A DNA stretch of 64,000 bases. It comes from an uncultured Spirochaetaceae bacterium. GTDB taxonomy: Bacteria > Spirochaetota > Spirochaetia > Sphaerochaetales > Sphaerochaetaceae. Positions 37,513-48,089 of this stretch are shown in pieces; position 1 is the stretch's first letter, and each line of letters begins with the position of its first letter. Made by a program: the position numbers and the translations under genes. The notes beneath the pieces were generated by a model that was given only the letters and a program-made list of their open reading frames with translations, was not told the DNA's origin and did not search any database. Where the stretch lies: contig CALXYM010000002.1 in the NCBI GenBank assembly GCA_944392965.1, forward strand, positions 1 through 64,000, written 5' to 3'.

Positions 37513-38037
37513 TCATGAATTCTCAGTTTCTTCATTCTTCCCTCTTTTAATTCTGGCTTTGGCAATCTTCTCTACATGAAGGAAGAACTCATAAATCGTT
37601 ATTCCCATGAGCCCTAAATAATCTTTTGCCATGATAAGAGTAGGACTTCGTCTTTTCCATCCTTTTCTTCCTGTTAATCCATAATACGTCTCATATCTGT
37701 ATCTTGTTACGAATTTCTTCTTATCAAGCAGTTCCAAGAAGGCCTGAGATAGATCATCTTCAATGATGATAAAATCCTTTAATTCTGGACGAGGTGAATG
37801 TGGTGTACTCTTCGTATTCCATTTATCCATATTAGGATGAAAAAGATCTGATGGATATATGCTGAGTACACGGCATAGGACAACAAGATTAATAAGCCGA
37901 GGATTCATATCCTCCTCGTTTCTTGTAAGATTTGTAAATGAAGCGGCAAGTCCTGCTTCCTTCAAAGCCGCTGTTGTCTTTAATCCTTTTGCGTTTATAG
38001 CGATGAAAATCTTATATCGTAAAATAAATGGATGCAA
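37513..38037 (-). CDS. small protein with XRE-like helix-turn-helix
   Basis: A 174-residue protein starting at TTG (38037) with GGGGAGG 6 nt upstream. Residues ~8-60 (INAKGLKTTAALKEAGLAASFTNLTRNEEDMNPRLINLVVLCRVLSIYPSDLF) look like a Cro/CI-type HTH of the kind that counts starting residues and ends in a PSDLF-like stretch. The rest is basic and unrecognised (YRYETYYGLTGRKGWKRRSP). It stands alone at the edge of the accessory region. A DNA-binding role is likely; the target is unknown. Confidence 0.6.
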   Translation of the reverse strand: MHPFILRYKIFIAINAKGLKTTAALKEAGLAASFTNLTRNEEDMNPRLINLVVLCRVLSIYPSDLFHPNMDKWNTKSTPHSPRPELKDFIIIEDDLSQAFLELLDKKKFVTRYRYETYYGLTGRKGWKRRSPTLIMAKDYLGLMGITIYEFFLHVEKIAKARIKRGKNEETENS

Positions 38038-38403
38038 TCATAACCTCCCCTTTTCTCTCCAAAAGAGAATTCTCTAAATCCCGTCCCCCATTCGCATCCA
38101 TACACCTTTACTCTGGAAGTCCGACCAGGAATGCACTGGTTGGATCCAGCAAAGTCAAATGAAAATAAGCATCATATACATTTTCCCCTCTATAATATTA
38201 TTGACTTAGTTAAGTACATATGTAAATTCAAAAAACTGATAAACTAGCTAAAAAACTACTTTTCTATGTAGCTTTTATGAAGTTAAAAGAAATTAATAAA
38301 GTTTCTTATATCATATTTTTCATAATTTAAATTTCTAAAAACCCATTCAAAGTTATATTTAATAACTAAGAATGGGTATAGCTCATACACATGAAAGGGG
38401 GAT
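38038..38403. other. intergenic stretch with one terminator
   Basis: About 366 bp between the HTH-like gene and the coiled-coil membrane protein gene. Apart from the terminator at 38336-38377 and the ribosome site of the HTH-like gene at 38044-38050, I see nothing in it. Confidence 0.4.
38336..38377 (-). terminator. intrinsic terminator after the coiled-coil membrane protein gene
   Basis: ACCCATTC (38341-38348) pairs with GAATGGGT (38370-38377). After a symmetric AA/AA internal loop, AGTTAT (38351-38356) pairs with ATAACT (38362-38367) around a 5-nt loop. On the minus strand it is followed by TTTT. It sits 27 nt past the stop of the gene at 38404-38949. Confidence 0.75.
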
Positions 38404-38949
38404 TCAAGGTATGCTAAGAACATAAGTATATGTGGTACTGCCTTCTTGGAGCGTCAGAGTATTTCCCGAACGAACAAAAGCATAAGAGATGTCATTTATG
38501 ACAAGAGTATCTCCGATGACAATTCCATCAAAGGGGATATTATATTCATCTATAGCTGTACAGCTTGCCCCATCCTGGGAAAACTCTAAAGACACATAAG
38601 GTGCTTCTCCAGATGCCAACCAGCTTGTATCTTCAATCATGCTTCGCTCTTCATCAATAATTGACTCTAAATCAGGAAAAAGTGCATCACAACTTATCAA
38701 GGTAAACAAAGCTCCTCCGATTAGAGCTATAACAATCACACACGTCGCTATTCTTCGTATTTTTCTCAATGTTCCTTCCATTTTCATTCTCTTCTCCTTA
38801 ATCTCTTCAAGTTCTCTTTGTAAAACGAGAAACTTCTCCATGTTCTTTTTTATTTCTGAAACTTCCTTTTCCAGGTAATAAAGAAGATGAACTTCCCCTA
38901 CTACGTACTTTATCAAATCATCTGAATTTACCTGTTTTTCATCTGACAT
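38404..38949 (-). CDS. single-pass membrane protein with coiled coil and C-terminal beta domain
   Basis: I choose the ATG at 38949 (181 residues), since AGGAGGG lies 6 nt upstream. Residues ~20-65 are a charged, probably coiled-coil segment (EKEVSEIKKNMEKF...ELEEIKEKRMK). A membrane helix follows at about 68-88 (ATCVIVIALIGGALFTLISC). The last ~75 residues (DTSWLASGEAPYVSLEFSQDG ... TLTLQEGSTTYTYVL) look like a small beta-strand domain. An N-in topology would put the coiled coil in the cytoplasm and the beta domain outside. I do not recognise the family. It is monocistronic, with its own terminator. Confidence 0.65.
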   Translation of the reverse strand: MSDEKQVNSDDLIKYVVGEVHLLYYLEKEVSEIKKNMEKFLVLQRELEEIKEKRMKMEGTLRKIRRIATCVIVIALIGGALFTLISCDALFPDLESIIDEERSMIEDTSWLASGEAPYVSLEFSQDGASCTAIDEYNIPFDGIVIGDTLVINDISYAFVRSGNTLTLQEGSTTYTYVLSIP

Positions 38950-39127
38950 AAAGAACCCTCCTTTCCTGTAGGGTACAAGCAGAAAAGAGAAGTCGCATTT
39001 ACAACAAATCAAAAGATTAGAATATAAGAAATTATTTAAAATATATGAATTATATTAATAATAACATACTATGACGTTAGATAGCTTGTAGAAAATATTA
39101 TATAGCTCTTACAGCTATAATCATAAT

Positions 39128-39556
39128 ATGAAAGAAGAGGAACAAAATAAACTCATAAAAGCATTAATATTAACAGTAATCATCATATTTATATTATGCA
39201 TTGCATCCATCTTTTTCGCCTCTTTAATATCAGAACCTCCTTCTCATAACGAAATCGAATTAGAAGAAATAATCTCCATTCTTGATAATTCCATCTATAC
39301 ACTGAATAAAGAACAGAAAGCAAAAGTTAAAACACTCTTCAACCTAGAGAATATGAAAACAATCGAGTTTAAAAGAAAAGAGATAGGACTTGATGTTATC
39401 ATCTCTGATGGAAGAACGAATTATATTTTTCCGTTTAATAAAGAAAGCAACAAACTCCTTTTTAAAAGAGGGGATGAGATTATCATGCTTTTTGTAAAAG
39501 GTTCTACTCCACTCTTTTATGATGGATATGAGAATATCTTAGAGTTAGGGGATTAA
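39128..39556 (+). CDS. small membrane-anchored protein of unknown function
   Basis: A 142-residue protein with a short charged N-terminus, one membrane helix (about 10-34, ALILTVIIIFILCIASIFFASLI) and a soluble tail that alternates charged and beta-like segments (DVIISDGRTNYIFPFNKESNKLLFKRGDEIIMLFV). No ribosome site of note precedes the ATG. It is divergent from the gene at 38404-38949, which has a similar single-pass plan, so the two could be functionally related. No family recognised. Confidence 0.55.
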   Translation: MKEEEQNKLIKALILTVIIIFILCIASIFFASLISEPPSHNEIELEEIISILDNSIYTLNKEQKAKVKTLFNLENMKTIEFKRKEIGLDVIISDGRTNYIFPFNKESNKLLFKRGDEIIMLFVKGSTPLFYDGYENILELGD

Positions 39557-39642: not shown

Positions 39643-40506
39643 TTAGAAATCCTTGATTAAATATTGATGTGTTGCAGATATAAAAAACTCTGCATCCCAG
39701 AGCTCAAGGGAACTTGTATCTTTTATGAAAGGTCTTACGTCGTTTTTAGCTTGAATATAATTGAGTTTTTTAAATCTTTCATCAAGTAAATCGACAAGAA
39801 CGGATAACGTAAAATCCGTATCTCTCGAGATCATGTTAAAATCAACCAGTTTTGCTTTCAAATTCTGCATATTTATCTCTGCCCGTCTTGCCAAATAGAA
39901 TAGATAATCATAAAGATCTCTTCCTTTAACTCTAGACCATCCCCTGCACAAGAGAGCATGAATCTTACCAGCAAATAATGAACCGACATCATACACCCTG
40001 ATCTTACATGGAGAAGGAAGCAACAGTGTCTTGAATTCATACATAGCTCCTTCGGGGGGATTAGTATCAACTTCAAATTTAATTTTAATCAATTCATTAT
40101 AGGGAACTTTTCCTGCACTTTGTGGATAAAACTTAAGAAGATGCTCTCTGGTATTACCTTTTACAAATGCAGAGCGCTCGAATGTATCTATATTTTTCTT
40201 CTTCTCCTCTACTGCAAAATTTAATCCTAAGGAAGAAATTTCATCGGATAAGGCAGAAAAGCATCTAGATAGATCATAATCAGCTTTCGGTTCCAACAAT
40301 GAGAAATCAAGATCTTCAGAAAACCTATCAAGCCCATAAAATATTCTTAGAGCAGTTCCTCCATAAAACGCAGCTTCATTAAAGAAACCTGCTTTGGATA
40401 ACCCTGCCAATACAACTTCCTGTATTACCTCCTTCAAAGCATTACGTACCTCATCTATATTGGACGTCTTATATCGGGATAACATCTGTTCTATTATACT
40501 TGTCAT
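39643..40506 (-). CDS. abiEii: AbiEii-type nucleotidyltransferase toxin
   Basis: A 287-residue nucleotidyltransferase of the AbiEii/MenT family. The family signature GGTALRIFYGLDRFSEDLDFSL spans 49-70, with the GG-T turn and the acidic pair D65/D67. AbiEii-type toxins inhibit growth through nucleotidyl transfer; related MenT toxins modify tRNA. Its start overlaps the antitoxin stop by 4 nt, and the order antitoxin-toxin is canonical. Length is near normal, and I see no frameshift, so the toxin is probably functional. Confidence 0.88.
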   Translation of the reverse strand: MTSIIEQMLSRYKTSNIDEVRNALKEVIQEVVLAGLSKAGFFNEAAFYGGTALRIFYGLDRFSEDLDFSLLEPKADYDLSRCFSALSDEISSLGLNFAVEEKKKNIDTFERSAFVKGNTREHLLKFYPQSAGKVPYNELIKIKFEVDTNPPEGAMYEFKTLLLPSPCKIRVYDVGSLFAGKIHALLCRGWSRVKGRDLYDYLFYLARRAEINMQNLKAKLVDFNMISRDTDFTLSVLVDLLDERFKKLNYIQAKNDVRPFIKDTSSLELWDAEFFISATHQYLIKDF

Positions 40507-41093
40507 TTCCTTCCTCCTCTGACAAACCGAGATAGATAATTCAGATTTGTCGAATTATAAAGCGGAGCTAAGAATAGAATATCTTCCATATTCAGGGACC
40601 AGAAATTCTCCTCATCTATTCTTAGATCCTCAAACAGTAAATATTTGAATTCCTTCATATTTTTTACAGGATTGATCGTATATAGCTTATCACACAGTGC
40701 CTTCTCGCAGACTGCAATCTGATATGAATAAGTCGAATCAGCAGTCTTTCCTAGGACCCCATATGGATAGACGTTCTTGGGAATATCTTGATAAGTATAT
40801 AAGCCGAATGCAGTATTGTATGTTTTCTTTTTCCGTTTCCCAAATGTTGCAGACGTGTATACATATACAGTTTCCGGAATTAGATCATAGATATAAAGCG
40901 CATAATCAAATGATAGGTAGGATGGACTATATATCCATGGTGCAAGATAAGAAGGTTCTACATTAGGATTATCCTCATACAATCCCCTAACAATTGGAAT
41001 AAGCTCTCCATTTTTGACGAGTCGCATTATTTTTCCTTTTACATCCGCATAGTTTTTATATTTTTGTATAAGTTCACCCGTTGAAAAAACCAT
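40503..41093 (-). CDS. abiEi: AbiEi-type antitoxin / autorepressor
   Basis: A 196-residue protein with an N-terminal winged-helix segment (STGELIQKYKNYADVKGKIMRLVKNGELIPIVRGLYED, 4-41), followed by a domain typical of AbiEi-like proteins. In characterised systems AbiEi counters the toxin and represses its operon by binding inverted repeats. A long inverted repeat (41094-41138) adjoins the start codon and contains the ribosome site GGAG. It overlaps the toxin gene by 4 nt. Confidence 0.82.
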   Translation of the reverse strand: MVFSTGELIQKYKNYADVKGKIMRLVKNGELIPIVRGLYEDNPNVEPSYLAPWIYSPSYLSFDYALYIYDLIPETVYVYTSATFGKRKKKTYNTAFGLYTYQDIPKNVYPYGVLGKTADSTYSYQIAVCEKALCDKLYTINPVKNMKEFKYLLFEDLRIDEENFWSLNMEDILFLAPLYNSTNLNYLSRFVRGGRK

Positions 41094-41138
41094 ATTTTCT
41101 CCACTAAGTTTTGTTTAGCACAACTTACTGGAGAAAAT
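41094..41138 (-). promoter_or_regulatory. inverted repeat covering the abiEi ribosome site
   Basis: Seventeen-nt arms (41094-41110 and 41122-41138) match except at one position, around an 11-nt loop. The left arm abuts the abiEi ATG and includes its Shine-Dalgarno GGAG. It could act as a DNA operator for AbiEi and, in RNA, as a hairpin hiding the ribosome site. Confidence 0.7.
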
Positions 41139-41202
41139 CAAGAGAAAGAAATAAAACTTACGAGACGGGACATTCAGTACAAAACTACAGACATACACAA
41201 TT

Positions 41203-41256
41203 TTGATAATTTTAAATTGTCAAATAACCACAAATTTGATAACATCAAATTATCAA
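41203..41256. promoter_or_regulatory. two tandem 21-bp palindromes upstream of the DUF4143 ATPase
   Basis: At 41203-41223 TTGATAA and TTGTCAA flank TTTTAAA. At 41236-41256 TTGATAA and TTATCAA flank CATCAAA. The copies are 33 bp apart, about three helical turns, and both are followed by ATAA. The sites lie just before the ATPase start and look like repressor operators. They argue against the longer ORF start at 41203. Confidence 0.6.
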
Positions 41257-41277
41257 ATAATAGAAAAAAGAAAGCAT

Positions 41278-42594
41278 ATGACAGTAGAAGAAATGAAGAG
41301 GAAGATTCTCAGCGACAGGGAATTAATCTTAACCAACACTTTTAAAGAAAGAGAATTTCAATATAAGGAAATTCCAGGAATGGCAACTGTAATCGTGGGA
41401 GCAAGACGCATAGGTAAAACATCTTTCATGAAACAGCATGCTTCCATGCTTATAAGAGAAGGACTCCCTCCTGAAAAAATATGTTATTTAAGTTTCTTCA
41501 CTTCTGCAGATCTAGATTTCCCTTTTTCCCTTATAGAGGATGCTTATTATGGCATCTACCCCGAATATCAACAAGATTCCTCCGTATGGTTTTTTCTTGA
41601 TGAAGTACAGGGGATAAAAAACTGGGGAGGAGGAGTTGCCCATCTTATGGAAGCACATCCCTGTCATGTCGTGATTACTGGATCAAGCGCGAAAATGTTG
41701 AGTACTGATATAGCTGATGAACTTAGGGGGAGAAGTATTCCTTTCAGATTCCATCCTCTTTCATTTCATGAGTTTCTCTATTTCAATGGTGTTCCACATG
41801 AAAGAAGAGAAGTATATTCCGACAGCGAGAGAAACATAATCTCAAAAGAATTTGAAAAATACATGAGAAGAAGCTCCTATCCACAGTTATACAACAACGA
41901 TGATGAAGGGCTTAAAAAACTTATTTTAAACACGTATTTTGATTTAACATTCTCAAGAGATCTCATAGAACGTTACGACATATCAAGAAGTGCAATGCTA
42001 CGCTATCTGATGAGAAGGACAATAAAGAATTCAGGATCACCATATACAATACGGAGATTGGTTAATACTCTTTCTAGCGCAGGATATCCAACCTCCATAG
42101 CACTTGTCTCAACATATATCGAAATGATGTGTGACTCTTGTTTTCTTACCGAAATATCAATTTGGGGGACGGAAAAAGAAAAGGAAAGAAATCCCAGGAA
42201 ACTATATACGATCGATCATCAGATGGGAGTACTATTCCGGGAATTTAGTACGTCTACAGGAATAATCTTAGAACATATAGTCCTTGAAACCATCAAACGA
42301 TATTCAGGATTCAAAATCAATTATTATAGAAGCCGAGAGGATTTGGAAACAGACTTTGTGTTATCAGATGAAGATGGAACTGTATACCACTTAATACAAG
42401 TAACGGATGATTATGAAAATGCAGAAGAAAGGGAATTAAGAGGGCTTCTTACAGCGATGAAGGAACTCAAAGTAACAAGAGGTTTAATCGTAACTGGAAC
42501 TGAAATTGAAAAACAGATTAATACAGAAAATGGTACTGTATATATCCTTCCCGCATGGAAGTTCGCATTGAATGCCCCCCTGATACTCAAATAG
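41278..42594 (+). CDS. AAA-type ATPase with DUF4143 domain
   Basis: I start this at the ATG at 41278 (438 residues) because the 25 codons upstream from 41203 are made of operator-like repeats. Walker A is at 41-49 (GARRIGKTS, K47), Walker B at D108-E109 (WFFLDEVQ), and a sensor-like VVITGSSAKML follows. The C-terminal part has the DUF4143 domain (about 200-430). Such single-gene ATPases are common, mobile and of unknown role. GAAAG lies 3-8 nt upstream, a weak ribosome site. It stands alone, divergent from abiE. Confidence 0.85.
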   Translation: MTVEEMKRKILSDRELILTNTFKEREFQYKEIPGMATVIVGARRIGKTSFMKQHASMLIREGLPPEKICYLSFFTSADLDFPFSLIEDAYYGIYPEYQQDSSVWFFLDEVQGIKNWGGGVAHLMEAHPCHVVITGSSAKMLSTDIADELRGRSIPFRFHPLSFHEFLYFNGVPHERREVYSDSERNIISKEFEKYMRRSSYPQLYNNDDEGLKKLILNTYFDLTFSRDLIERYDISRSAMLRYLMRRTIKNSGSPYTIRRLVNTLSSAGYPTSIALVSTYIEMMCDSCFLTEISIWGTEKEKERNPRKLYTIDHQMGVLFREFSTSTGIILEHIVLETIKRYSGFKINYYRSREDLETDFVLSDEDGTVYHLIQVTDDYENAEERELRGLLTAMKELKVTRGLIVTGTEIEKQINTENGTVYILPAWKFALNAPLILK

Positions 42595-42817: not shown

Positions 42818-44254
42818 TTATTTAAACCAATCATTATTGATACCTGTCCACCTCACCCCTATTGTGAATTGTGGCAGAAATCTAGTTTCTCCCTTATGAA
42901 AATCATAATTGAAATACGTACTGAAAGCTGTGGATACATACACTTCAAGATTATAATAATCCCAAGTATAACTGCTATAAATCACAGGTTGAAGCAAATG
43001 CTCCGCATTGCCCCATCCTCCCGTCGGAGTTATTGCATTCATAAAAATACTGGAATCATCTTCAATTATAGAATTTCCCATATCAATGGTATTACCATCA
43101 GAATTTCCTAATCTCTTCTGTCCTGAAATTCTATAAACGGTCTTAAATCCAATACTCCATACATAGTCGCTACTGTTATATTCACTTCCTACCCCCAATA
43201 GAATTGTATCTGGCCCAAATTGGTAGCCAGAATATCCATAATCTGCAACACCACTGGAACGATAACCAACGATATAATCAAGATTATAATCAATCGCCCC
43301 ATTCTCTTCCCGTTTCCCATTCAGGTATAAATAGGGATTCGTATAAACGAACTCACCCCATAAATCAAACATTCCATCATTAGGTCCATCGAAAGAATAT
43401 TTTGCATTTGCAAGAAATCCCCAAGCATTGGGAATATTCTCAGGGTTCTCTGTTATCACCTGCATCTGGTCCAGAACAAATTCTAAATTTAGTGCTAATC
43501 CAGAGATAGGAATTATTTCAAGATACAATCCCAGCAGATTGTTCGCTTCATCAAAATACCTTTTTGTTAATTCATTCGTGTAATTATAATAATTATGAGA
43601 AATAACGAAGGGATAGAAAAATCTCATATCAAAGCCGTAATGGGAATTGTAAATCGTAGCGAGATCCATGGCAAAGCGAACCTTATTAAAGAGATTGACA
43701 TCAAATCTGTGTACCACACGGAACTGCTGCATCCCGTCAAATTCGCTCCTGCTCATGGTCCCATACCCGCCTCCGATATTGTCCATCTGGTCGAATCTTG
43801 TGATGGAGATGTTATATGTGAAGTAATTGCTGATTAAAGACAGGTTGGATATCTCCTGATACATGAAGTTGTCTCCGACAAGAAGATTCCCTGTGATCCC
43901 GCTTCCTATGCTGTGAGGATAGAGGCCTAGAATAAAACTGAAATAATCATTGCCGATTGAAGCCCCTGCCCTAACAGGGAATTCACCTATTTTTACATCC
44001 GCGAATTCAGTAAGATATCCTGTAAACTGATTCACATATCCCAACAGGAAATCCATTGAGCTTATATGATTTTTCTTATTATCATTCTTAATACCAAATT
44101 TCCCTTCAAGAAAAACATAGTTACCAAAATACATCTCAGGATAAAGAGCTAAAAAATCATCCTGATATCGATAAGGAAGGATAGTATCATTCCGATGATC
44201 AATATCTTGGTTTATATATTCAAACTTGTTATAGTCCTCGATATTGAAAGTTAA
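42818..44254 (-). pseudogene. 5'-truncated Wzi-like outer-membrane barrel gene
   Basis: The open frame gives 438 residues from an internal ATG (44134). Homology with the intact paralogue at 46305-48089 continues upstream in the same frame to 44254 (LTFNIEDY...DHRNDT...PYR). There it stops at an in-frame TAA (44255-44257). The signal peptide and the first ~115 residues are missing, so no exported product is expected. The C-terminal barrel is well conserved (EFDGMQQFRVVHRFD, FFYPFVISHN, AEHLLQPVIY, WTGINN). The stretch near 43600-44000 is visibly richer in GC than the flanks. The remnant may serve as a donor for gene conversion. Confidence 0.8.
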
Positions 44255-46304: not shown

Positions 46305-48089
46305 ATGATGTCTGGTATTAAAAGAAGTGCTTTATTTTTAATTGTTTTATTTTGTACGGTTATATCACTATTTGCTGGCAATCTACAAAAAACCTATACA
46401 GTTGATGACGAAATATATAAACGTGTGGACAGGTTAACGAGGGAAGCAGGTGTTATAGGACCTTCAAGCTTTTCTCCAATGTCTGGGAGAGTATTGCAGA
46501 TCGCTTTAAATAGAATAGATACAACAAAACTTTCACCTTCTCAATTGGATGAATACAACTATTTATACAACGAAATAACTAAAGACCAAGAGAATCATAC
46601 AATATTTTATTCTGATAATTTTGGATTAGATATAGGACTAGGAGCAAATTTAACTTTCAATATCGAGGATTATGAGAAGTTCGATTATTCTAATCAAAAA
46701 ATAGATCATCGGAATGATGCATTAATCCCATATAGAGATGCCGATGGATTTATCTCCGCAAATCCCAAACTTTACTTTGGAGATTACATCTTCATGGAAG
46801 GAGATTTTGAAATTAAAAACAATAACAAAAGAACATATGAAAGCTCTTTGGGATGGCTTTTAACAGGAGCCGGAGGAAGTTTAAGTGTATTTGGAAATGG
46901 AGCTTACTATAATTCCATGTCACCGGAAATTCCATTTAAAGCAGGGATATCCGCAGGAAATGATTATCTCCATTTTGTTCTTGGTCGATATCCCCATAGC
47001 ATAGGAAGTGGAATCACAGGAAATTTAACAGTAGGAGATAATTTTCTCTATCAGGAAATTTCTAATCTTTCGTTTATTTCTAATTATTTTACTTATAACA
47101 TCTCAATCACACGTTTTGACCAAATGGAACAGGATAAAAATAATGAAGATTTGGCTTCTTTCAGCCGAAGTGAATTTGATGGCATGCAACAATTCCGAGT
47201 CGTACACAGATTTGATATTAATTTTTTCAATAAAGTACGCTTTGCGTTAGATTTGGCAACAATCTACAATTCCACTTATGGTTTTGATATAAGATTCTTT
47301 TACCCTTTCGTTATTTCTCACAACTATTTTAATTATGCAAATAAAACATATAAAGAAACTTATGATGAAGCAAATAATCTAATGACCTTTTCTCTAGAAA
47401 TCGTTCCAGTAAAGGGCCTTACATTAGGAGCTCAATTTACTGTTGATCAGTTTCAAATGTATTTTGAAAAGGCAACAATACCGAATGCTTGGGGAGTACT
47501 TGGAAATATAAAATACTCAACTCCAGTAAAAGAAAAAGGTCATTTAGATACCTGGATAGAAATAGTATATACTAATCCATATCTATATCTGAATGGCAAA
47601 TATGATGACAACGGTAGAGATTACAACCTAGATTACATTACAGGATACAGAACAAGTCTCATACCTGAGTTTGGATACTCCGGATACGTTTATGGCCCAG
47701 ATACAATACTATTTGCGGCAGGTAGCGAATATTCCGATAATAATAACTGGGATATTGGATTAAAAGTTCTTTACAGAGTACAAGGAAATAACCGTCTCGG
47801 TACGGCCTCAGCTGATGACATACTAATAGATATGTCTGGTTCTTTTATCAAGGATAGTGATGATTTCTATGCAAGTACACCAACAACAGGCTGGAATAAA
47901 GCAGAACATTTATTACAACCCGTTATTTATGGTAGTTACAAATGGAATTATTATAACTTAGAGTTATATGCAGCTATGGCATTCAGTACTTATTTTAATT
48001 ATAACTTTGAGTCTCAAATAAGTTTTTTACCACAAGCTACTATAGGTATTAAATGGACGGGGATTAATAATACTTGGTTTCAGCACTAA
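46305..48089 (+). CDS. Wzi-like outer-membrane beta-barrel
   Basis: A 594-residue protein with a signal peptide (SALFLIVLFCTVISLFAG, cleavage near residue 24) and a short N-terminal helical part (DDEIYKRVDRLTREAGVIGPSSFSPMSGR). A long run of alternating polar/aromatic strands follows, ending in a terminal beta-strand (ATIGIKWTGINNTWFQ). This matches capsule-assembly Wzi-type barrels, which hold polysaccharide at the cell surface. It is translationally linked to LicD; AAGGAT precedes ATGATG, and either ATG may be the start. It is the intact paralogue of the decayed copy at 42818-44254 and a cousin of 55370-57043. Confidence 0.75.
   Translation: MMSGIKRSALFLIVLFCTVISLFAGNLQKTYTVDDEIYKRVDRLTREAGVIGPSSFSPMSGRVLQIALNRIDTTKLSPSQLDEYNYLYNEITKDQENHTIFYSDNFGLDIGLGANLTFNIEDYEKFDYSNQKIDHRNDALIPYRDADGFISANPKLYFGDYIFMEGDFEIKNNNKRTYESSLGWLLTGAGGSLSVFGNGAYYNSMSPEIPFKAGISAGNDYLHFVLGRYPHSIGSGITGNLTVGDNFLYQEISNLSFISNYFTYNISITRFDQMEQDKNNEDLASFSRSEFDGMQQFRVVHRFDINFFNKVRFALDLATIYNSTYGFDIRFFYPFVISHNYFNYANKTYKETYDEANNLMTFSLEIVPVKGLTLGAQFTVDQFQMYFEKATIPNAWGVLGNIKYSTPVKEKGHLDTWIEIVYTNPYLYLNGKYDDNGRDYNLDYITGYRTSLIPEFGYSGYVYGPDTILFAAGSEYSDNNNWDIGLKVLYRVQGNNRLGTASADDILIDMSGSFIKDSDDFYASTPTTGWNKAEHLLQPVIYGSYKWNYYNLELYAAMAFSTYFNYNFESQISFLPQATIGIKWTGINNTWFQH

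Follow-up and report, generated by a model that had tools for sequence, protein, structure and literature searches.

The inverted repeat directly upstream of abiEi in an uncultured Spirochaetaceae bacterium is very probably the promoter-operator of the abiE operon, judging from its sequence and that of its relatives: transcription would start in the proximal arm, AbiEi would bind the two half-sites and repress, and the operon's own transcript would not contain a long hairpin. Within this arrangement, RNA polymerase would recognise TTGATT, at the distal arm's outer edge, together with a -10 element at the dyad centre, and transcription would begin approx. 11 nt past the centre. Two AbiEi monomers would occupy both half-sites on the DNA, covering the promoter and keeping the abiEi-abiEii operon repressed. 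The mRNA leader, starting in the proximal arm, would be approx. 12-15 nt long; the distal arm would remain untranscribed, and thus the hairpin could not form on this transcript. For the uncultured Spirochaetaceae host, we infer the start site as well as binding and repression by AbiEi. The initial annotation of this locus had proposed two layers of control, i.e., binding of AbiEi to the dyad as DNA and folding of the same sequence in the mRNA, which limits antitoxin translation; the first layer is retained here as probable, whereas the second is not.

The dyad and the abiEi-abiEii genes

The window, i.e., the whole stretch of DNA that was analysed, comprises 64,000 nt (CALXYM010000002.1, positions 1-64,000; assembly GCA_944392965.1). 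Read on the minus strand, the dyad and the start of abiEi are TTG-ATTTTCTCCAGTAAGTT-GTGCTAAACAA-AACTTAGTGGAGAAAAT-ATGG. The distal (left) arm, the predicted AbiEi half-site 1, occupies 41138-41122, and the proximal (right) arm, the predicted half-site 2, occupies 41110-41094; they are complementary at 16 of 17 positions, the sole mismatch being G·G, and are separated by an 11-nt loop (41121-41111) that contains the -10 position. The start-proximal arm overlaps the Shine-Dalgarno sequence GGAG (41102-41099), which lies 5 nt 5' of the abiEi ATG (41093-41091, minus strand), and this start codon directly follows the arm. The description given by the initial annotation (17-nt arms, a single mismatch, an 11-nt loop, and GGAG in the ATG-adjacent arm) was thus confirmed. 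A general repeat search lists the same dyad as 20-nt arms, 90% complementary, with a spacing of 5 nt. The best 17-nt dyad in the surrounding 175 bases scores 16, compared with an average of 11.1 for dinucleotide shuffles, none of which reached 16 (0/2000).

A stem-loop with A/T-rich outer ends might also be a terminator, the end of a mobile element, or a dispersed repeat with no role in abiE. However, terminator-like sites were not found in 40900-41400, the 91 bases around the dyad have one match (the dyad itself) in the 2.43-Mb assembly, and the same place before abiEi is occupied by such a dyad in other genera, in other families, and in one genome labelled Bacillota, so that this explanation is extremely improbable. 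No viral relatives were found in IMG/VR, where close relatives only were sought, or in phage records at E 1e-5.

The two genes downstream of the dyad are encoded on one strand and overlap by 4 nt according to their ORF coordinates, which is the antitoxin-toxin bicistronic order. The first, abiEi (40503-41093, minus strand), encodes an antitoxin and putative autorepressor of 196 aa that matches AbiEi in PADLOC (2.5e-60). No Pfam or NCBIfam family was matched by this protein, and its profile search found no PDB chain by sequence. The AlphaFold model (pLDDT 95) matches S. agalactiae AbiEi in Foldseek (6y8q_A, 9.1e-7); superposition on 6y8q gave Z 11.2 and an rmsd of 5.6 over 177 residues, and superposition on M. 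tuberculosis Rv2827c (1zel) gave Z 9.3 and an rmsd of 3.7 over 177 residues. PADLOC and the fold together identify the protein as being of the AbiEi type, with an N-terminal winged helix and a C-terminal domain (COG5340). The second gene, abiEii (39643-40506, minus strand), encodes a protein of 287 aa identified by Pfam (PF08843, 2e-30) and PADLOC (AbiEii, 5.7e-100) as the nucleotidyltransferase toxin (DUF1814), for which there was no NCBIfam match. The locus is a genuine abiEi-abiEii pair of the AbiE type IV toxin-antitoxin kind.

Relatives of the locus

A first set of 105 candidate stretches yielded two relatives (L003 and L004). Matches were found in 49 of 139 and 53 of 392 genomes in two further sets, from which 30 and 21 loci with the stronger matches were taken; L015, in which the gene is cut at the contig end, was omitted, giving 52 loci including the first two. 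Twelve of these were dropped to obtain 40 non-redundant loci. Five were redundant, namely L003 (taken as the contig of L006, with the same upstream letters) and L022, L024, L026, and L027, which are near-identical to others. In a further five (L031, L036, L037, L038, and L055), which remain among the 52, the dyad is at chance level, and their omission favours the promoter-operator reading. In the last two (L046 and L051), the program chose a different dyad, although the motif is visible there by eye. The loci are related to one another, and thus counts taken over them exaggerate their independence.

A similar dyad precedes abiEi in members of the window's own genus and family, in further families of its phylum, and in the genome labelled Bacillota (L004). 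The dyads of 28 of the 52 loci were matched by at most 1 in 100 shuffles, and the remainder, including that of L004 (18/100), are individually weak. Because so many dyads are individually weak, the case rests on their position and motif rather than on each dyad alone. The closest comparison is provided by L006, whose AbiEi is 86% identical to that of the window.

Placement of the promoter

Upstream DNA was scored for sigma70-like promoters in the 52 loci and then in the 40 non-redundant loci with a strand control, using an E. coli sigma70 matrix that was set up from general knowledge and not fitted to spirochaetes. In the wider scan, 33 of 40 loci (38 of 52 overall) have their best-scoring abiE-strand promoter at the dyad centre, with the -10 element no more than 3 nt away from it; the mean score at the centre is 9.2 on the abiE strand vs. 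2.7 on the opposite strand, which was scanned over a longer stretch. When the scan covered 70 nt to each side of the centre for both strands alike, the centre promoter ranked top in 35 of 40 loci on the abiE strand and in two of 40 on the other, equally symmetric strand. In 31 of these 35 loci it sits at an identical offset of +0.5 nt, and five of the 40 loci place another site above it. In related loci, the predicted -35 element falls on the outer edge of the distal arm, the predicted -10 element on the dyad centre; the commonest elements there are TTGATT (19 of 40 loci) or TTGACT (five) at -35, TATAAT (14) at -10, and a spacer of 17 nt (26). In the Bacillota-labelled locus, the outer edge of the distal arm carries TTGATT, and TATAAT follows after 17 nt in the loop.

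Within the window, the predicted -35 element is TTGATT (41141-41136, minus strand), and the promoter score places a weak -10 element 18 nt from it, TGC-TAAACA (41120-41112, hexamer 41117-41112), whose TG we take to be the TGn element of an extended -10. This promoter ranks third among 176 positions in the wider scan and first among the 140 positions that lie up to 70 nt from the centre, yet its score is the second lowest of the 40 in the equal-window scan. The -10 elements of the window and L006 are both poor (TAAACA; CTAAAC or ATAAAC at the exact centre), and in the wider scan the window centre promoter is outscored by CTGTCA-16-TATTAT at 41284-41257. A stricter consensus scan missed the centre promoter of the window and retained this upstream site, its total of 3 promoters being at the shuffle level (2.2 expected). 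In the distant relative L054, the dyad is near-perfect (16/17), its arms lack CTCC/GGAG, and the best promoter lies upstream of it.

The weakness of this -10 element in the window and L006, together with the promoter-like match upstream, would suit a special case of one lineage in which the ancestral internal promoter has degenerated, leaving abiE to be transcribed from a promoter in the region of the divergent ATPase gene (41257-41284) and giving a hairpin here and not in the relatives. Nonetheless, when the window and L006 are anchored on the dyad centre, 20/20, 19/20, and 19/20 bases are identical from -27 to +32, compared with 7/20 in the adjoining 20 bases beyond the -35 edge and 3-8/20 per block in the upstream DNA generally. 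Since 58 of the 60 bases surrounding the dyad are retained in L006 despite its different upstream DNA, selection appears to act on the dyad region itself, and decay of the promoter in this lineage is very unlikely. In six other relatives, identity at the same edge rises from 3-9/20 upstream to 15-18/20. A common promoter upstream of -35 is unlikely because these eight loci visibly share nothing there.

The promoter-operator reading places inverted repeats at the promoter, as in other AbiE systems, this placement being a prediction from relatives that is weak in the window itself. A start approx. 7 nt past the -10 element would fall near 41105 (inferred region 41107-41103, minus strand), inside the proximal arm, and the mRNA would therefore lack the distal arm. 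From the sequence comparison, a transcript start upstream of the dyad is unlikely. According to the initial annotation, the mRNA hairpin cannot form if the transcript starts inside the repeat; such a start is what the comparison of relatives predicts, with the reservation that the window -10 is weak.

A DNA or an RNA element

An mRNA fold that hides the Shine-Dalgarno sequence and limits antitoxin translation would add a second layer to binding of the DNA by AbiEi, provided that transcription started upstream of the dyad. The 57-nt RNA with both arms does fold strongly (-20.4 kcal/mol, z -5.8), with z falling as flank is added (-3.9 at 78 nt, -3.2 at 91 nt, and -2.8 at 141 nt). The computed probability that GGAG is unpaired is 0.00 with both arms vs. 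0.22-0.23 for starts inside the arm, and that for the ATG is 0.40-0.66 vs. 0.92-0.97. The short leader is thus predicted to be more open, although GGAG should still pair, more weakly, with the first codons. The weak -10 element of the window and the higher-scoring site upstream also speak for the two-layer model. Against it stand the promoter-like elements within the dyad in relatives, the end of homology at -35, and the absence of a shared upstream sequence fit for a common promoter.

The conservation of the arms bears on the same question. Selection on an RNA stem is expected to spare G·U over A·C pairs, and this signature was sought in 720 arm pairs from the 40 loci (5-22 nt from the centre) and was not found. 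There were 568 Watson-Crick, 34 G·U, 31 A·C, and 87 other pairs, i.e., no preference for G·U over A·C (one-sided binomial p 0.40, uncorrected for relatedness). Some arm positions change together on both sides, which is allowed by both the DNA and the RNA reading. The AAGT and CTCC blocks in each arm are near-fixed in their letters, each of the eight positions showing an identical pair in 33-39 of the 40 loci; such fixation of letters, rather than mere pairing, fits recognition of the DNA by a protein. Moreover, L014 retains 15 of 17 dyad positions despite the change of GGAG to GGCG, a further point against an RNA role. A second candidate for a dyad without a ribosome site, L035, was rejected, as GAGG adjoins the changed GGCG. 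Given equal G·U and A·C counts and conservation that stops at -35, the second layer of the initial annotation is not supported: the two-layer model as a whole is quite unlikely, and so is, on sequence grounds, an mRNA hairpin on the abiE transcript.

A different role for the fold is conceivable, in which an operator spanning the Shine-Dalgarno sequence insulates the operon, with readthrough RNA carrying both arms and hiding the ribosome site and the operon's own transcript being more open; we consider this unlikely. It would, if true, need no separately evolved RNA element.

Judged by eye, the operator consensus is about TTGAyTTTCTCCAgnAAGTA-(TATAAT centre)-TACTTnCTGGAGAAA. This consensus is absent, again by eye, from six homologues on named plasmids (six of 15 matches, 26-38% identity), whose best dyads reach 11 to 15 of 17 with no shuffle comparison; that of L081 (13/17) directly precedes the ATG. 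Thus, the sequence motif is not general to distant AbiEi proteins, whereas having a dyad in this position may be.

Neighbouring genes

A divergent ATPase gene (AAA_14/DUF4143; PADLOC candidate PDC-S01) lies at 41278 and is preceded by two TTTGATAA palindromes, 33 bp apart (41202-41257; region 41196-41260). These palindromes were considered as AbiEi sites and rejected: they are missing before the abiEi of L003/L006, which lacks such an ATPase within 3 kb upstream, and similar pairs precede other copies of the ATPase. A palindrome pair reached by none of 60 shuffles was found at nine of 18 ATPase loci, some of which are closely related (L070, L071, and L073). The spacing is 32-33 bp in eight of these nine pairs and the sequences vary between members, i.e., the spacing is kept and the letters are not. 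Such a pair is possibly a site of self-regulation or a loading site. The ATPase family is large in the genome that contains the window, with at least 12 matches (12 of 24 first-look candidates scored).

On the other side of the operon, the genes 3' of abiEii appear alike by eye in the window (37513-39556) and L003 (4543-6585), but no such likeness is seen in the DNA 5' of the operator; it is as if the abiE locus had one changing edge. Farther away, two similar genes on opposite strands, 42818-44134 (minus) and 46305-48089 (plus), lie approx. 2 kb apart and share, e.g., YSGYxxGPDTIL and FFYPFVISHNY; between them are glycosyltransferase-like and LicD-type-like genes, named by eye.

Comparison with known AbiE systems

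The best point of reference is S. agalactiae abiE, in which AbiEi acts as a repressor that binds both IR1 and IR2 (Dy et al. 2014, PMC3985639). As described there, transcription starts 26 bp 5' of the ATG, and the -35 element, TTGCTT, lies in IR1 and is lost on IR1 deletion, with the -10 element, TAAAAT, 17 bp on. The layout proposed here is similar to the one in that account, with inverted repeats that flank the core promoter, the -10 element in the middle, and a bicistronic abiEi-abiEii downstream. In both systems the -35 element is in the upstream repeat (TTGCTT in S. agalactiae, TTGATT in the window), and the 17-bp spacer of S. agalactiae (PMC3985639) is found in 26 of 40 loci here, compared with 18 in the best match of the window. 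By arithmetic that assumes +1 approx. 7 nt after the -10 element, the published S. agalactiae IR2 would end approx. 15 nt before the ATG, leaving the ribosome site outside (PMC3985639). Unlike this, the right half-site of the window reaches the ATG and contains GGAG, and the half-site sequences differ. In M. tuberculosis, Rv2827c, an AbiEi-type antitoxin, binds inverted repeats that overlap its own promoter; its operator is reported to comprise two repeat pairs and to show negative cooperativity, whereas the window has one dyad (PMC7319586). No report of an AbiEi operator covering a Shine-Dalgarno sequence was found among the titles and opening lines of abstracts that were screened. Dy et al. 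compare such repeats in other abiE loci in their Figure S8.

Taken with the family assignment, the modelled fold, and the conserved dyad, the S. agalactiae case supports the proposal that AbiEi would bind the dyad as DNA. Most likely, the dyad is an ordinary promoter-operator whose right half-site doubles as a Shine-Dalgarno sequence.

The comparison, which puts the promoter inside the repeat, shows how an mRNA element can mistakenly be read into a hairpin seen in DNA. A second outcome is an operator consensus for one AbiEi group in the phylum of the window and in one Bacillota-labelled genome. The predicted arrangement would be that of S. agalactiae in compact form, with the plan shifted closer to the gene and the right half-site also serving as the ribosome site.
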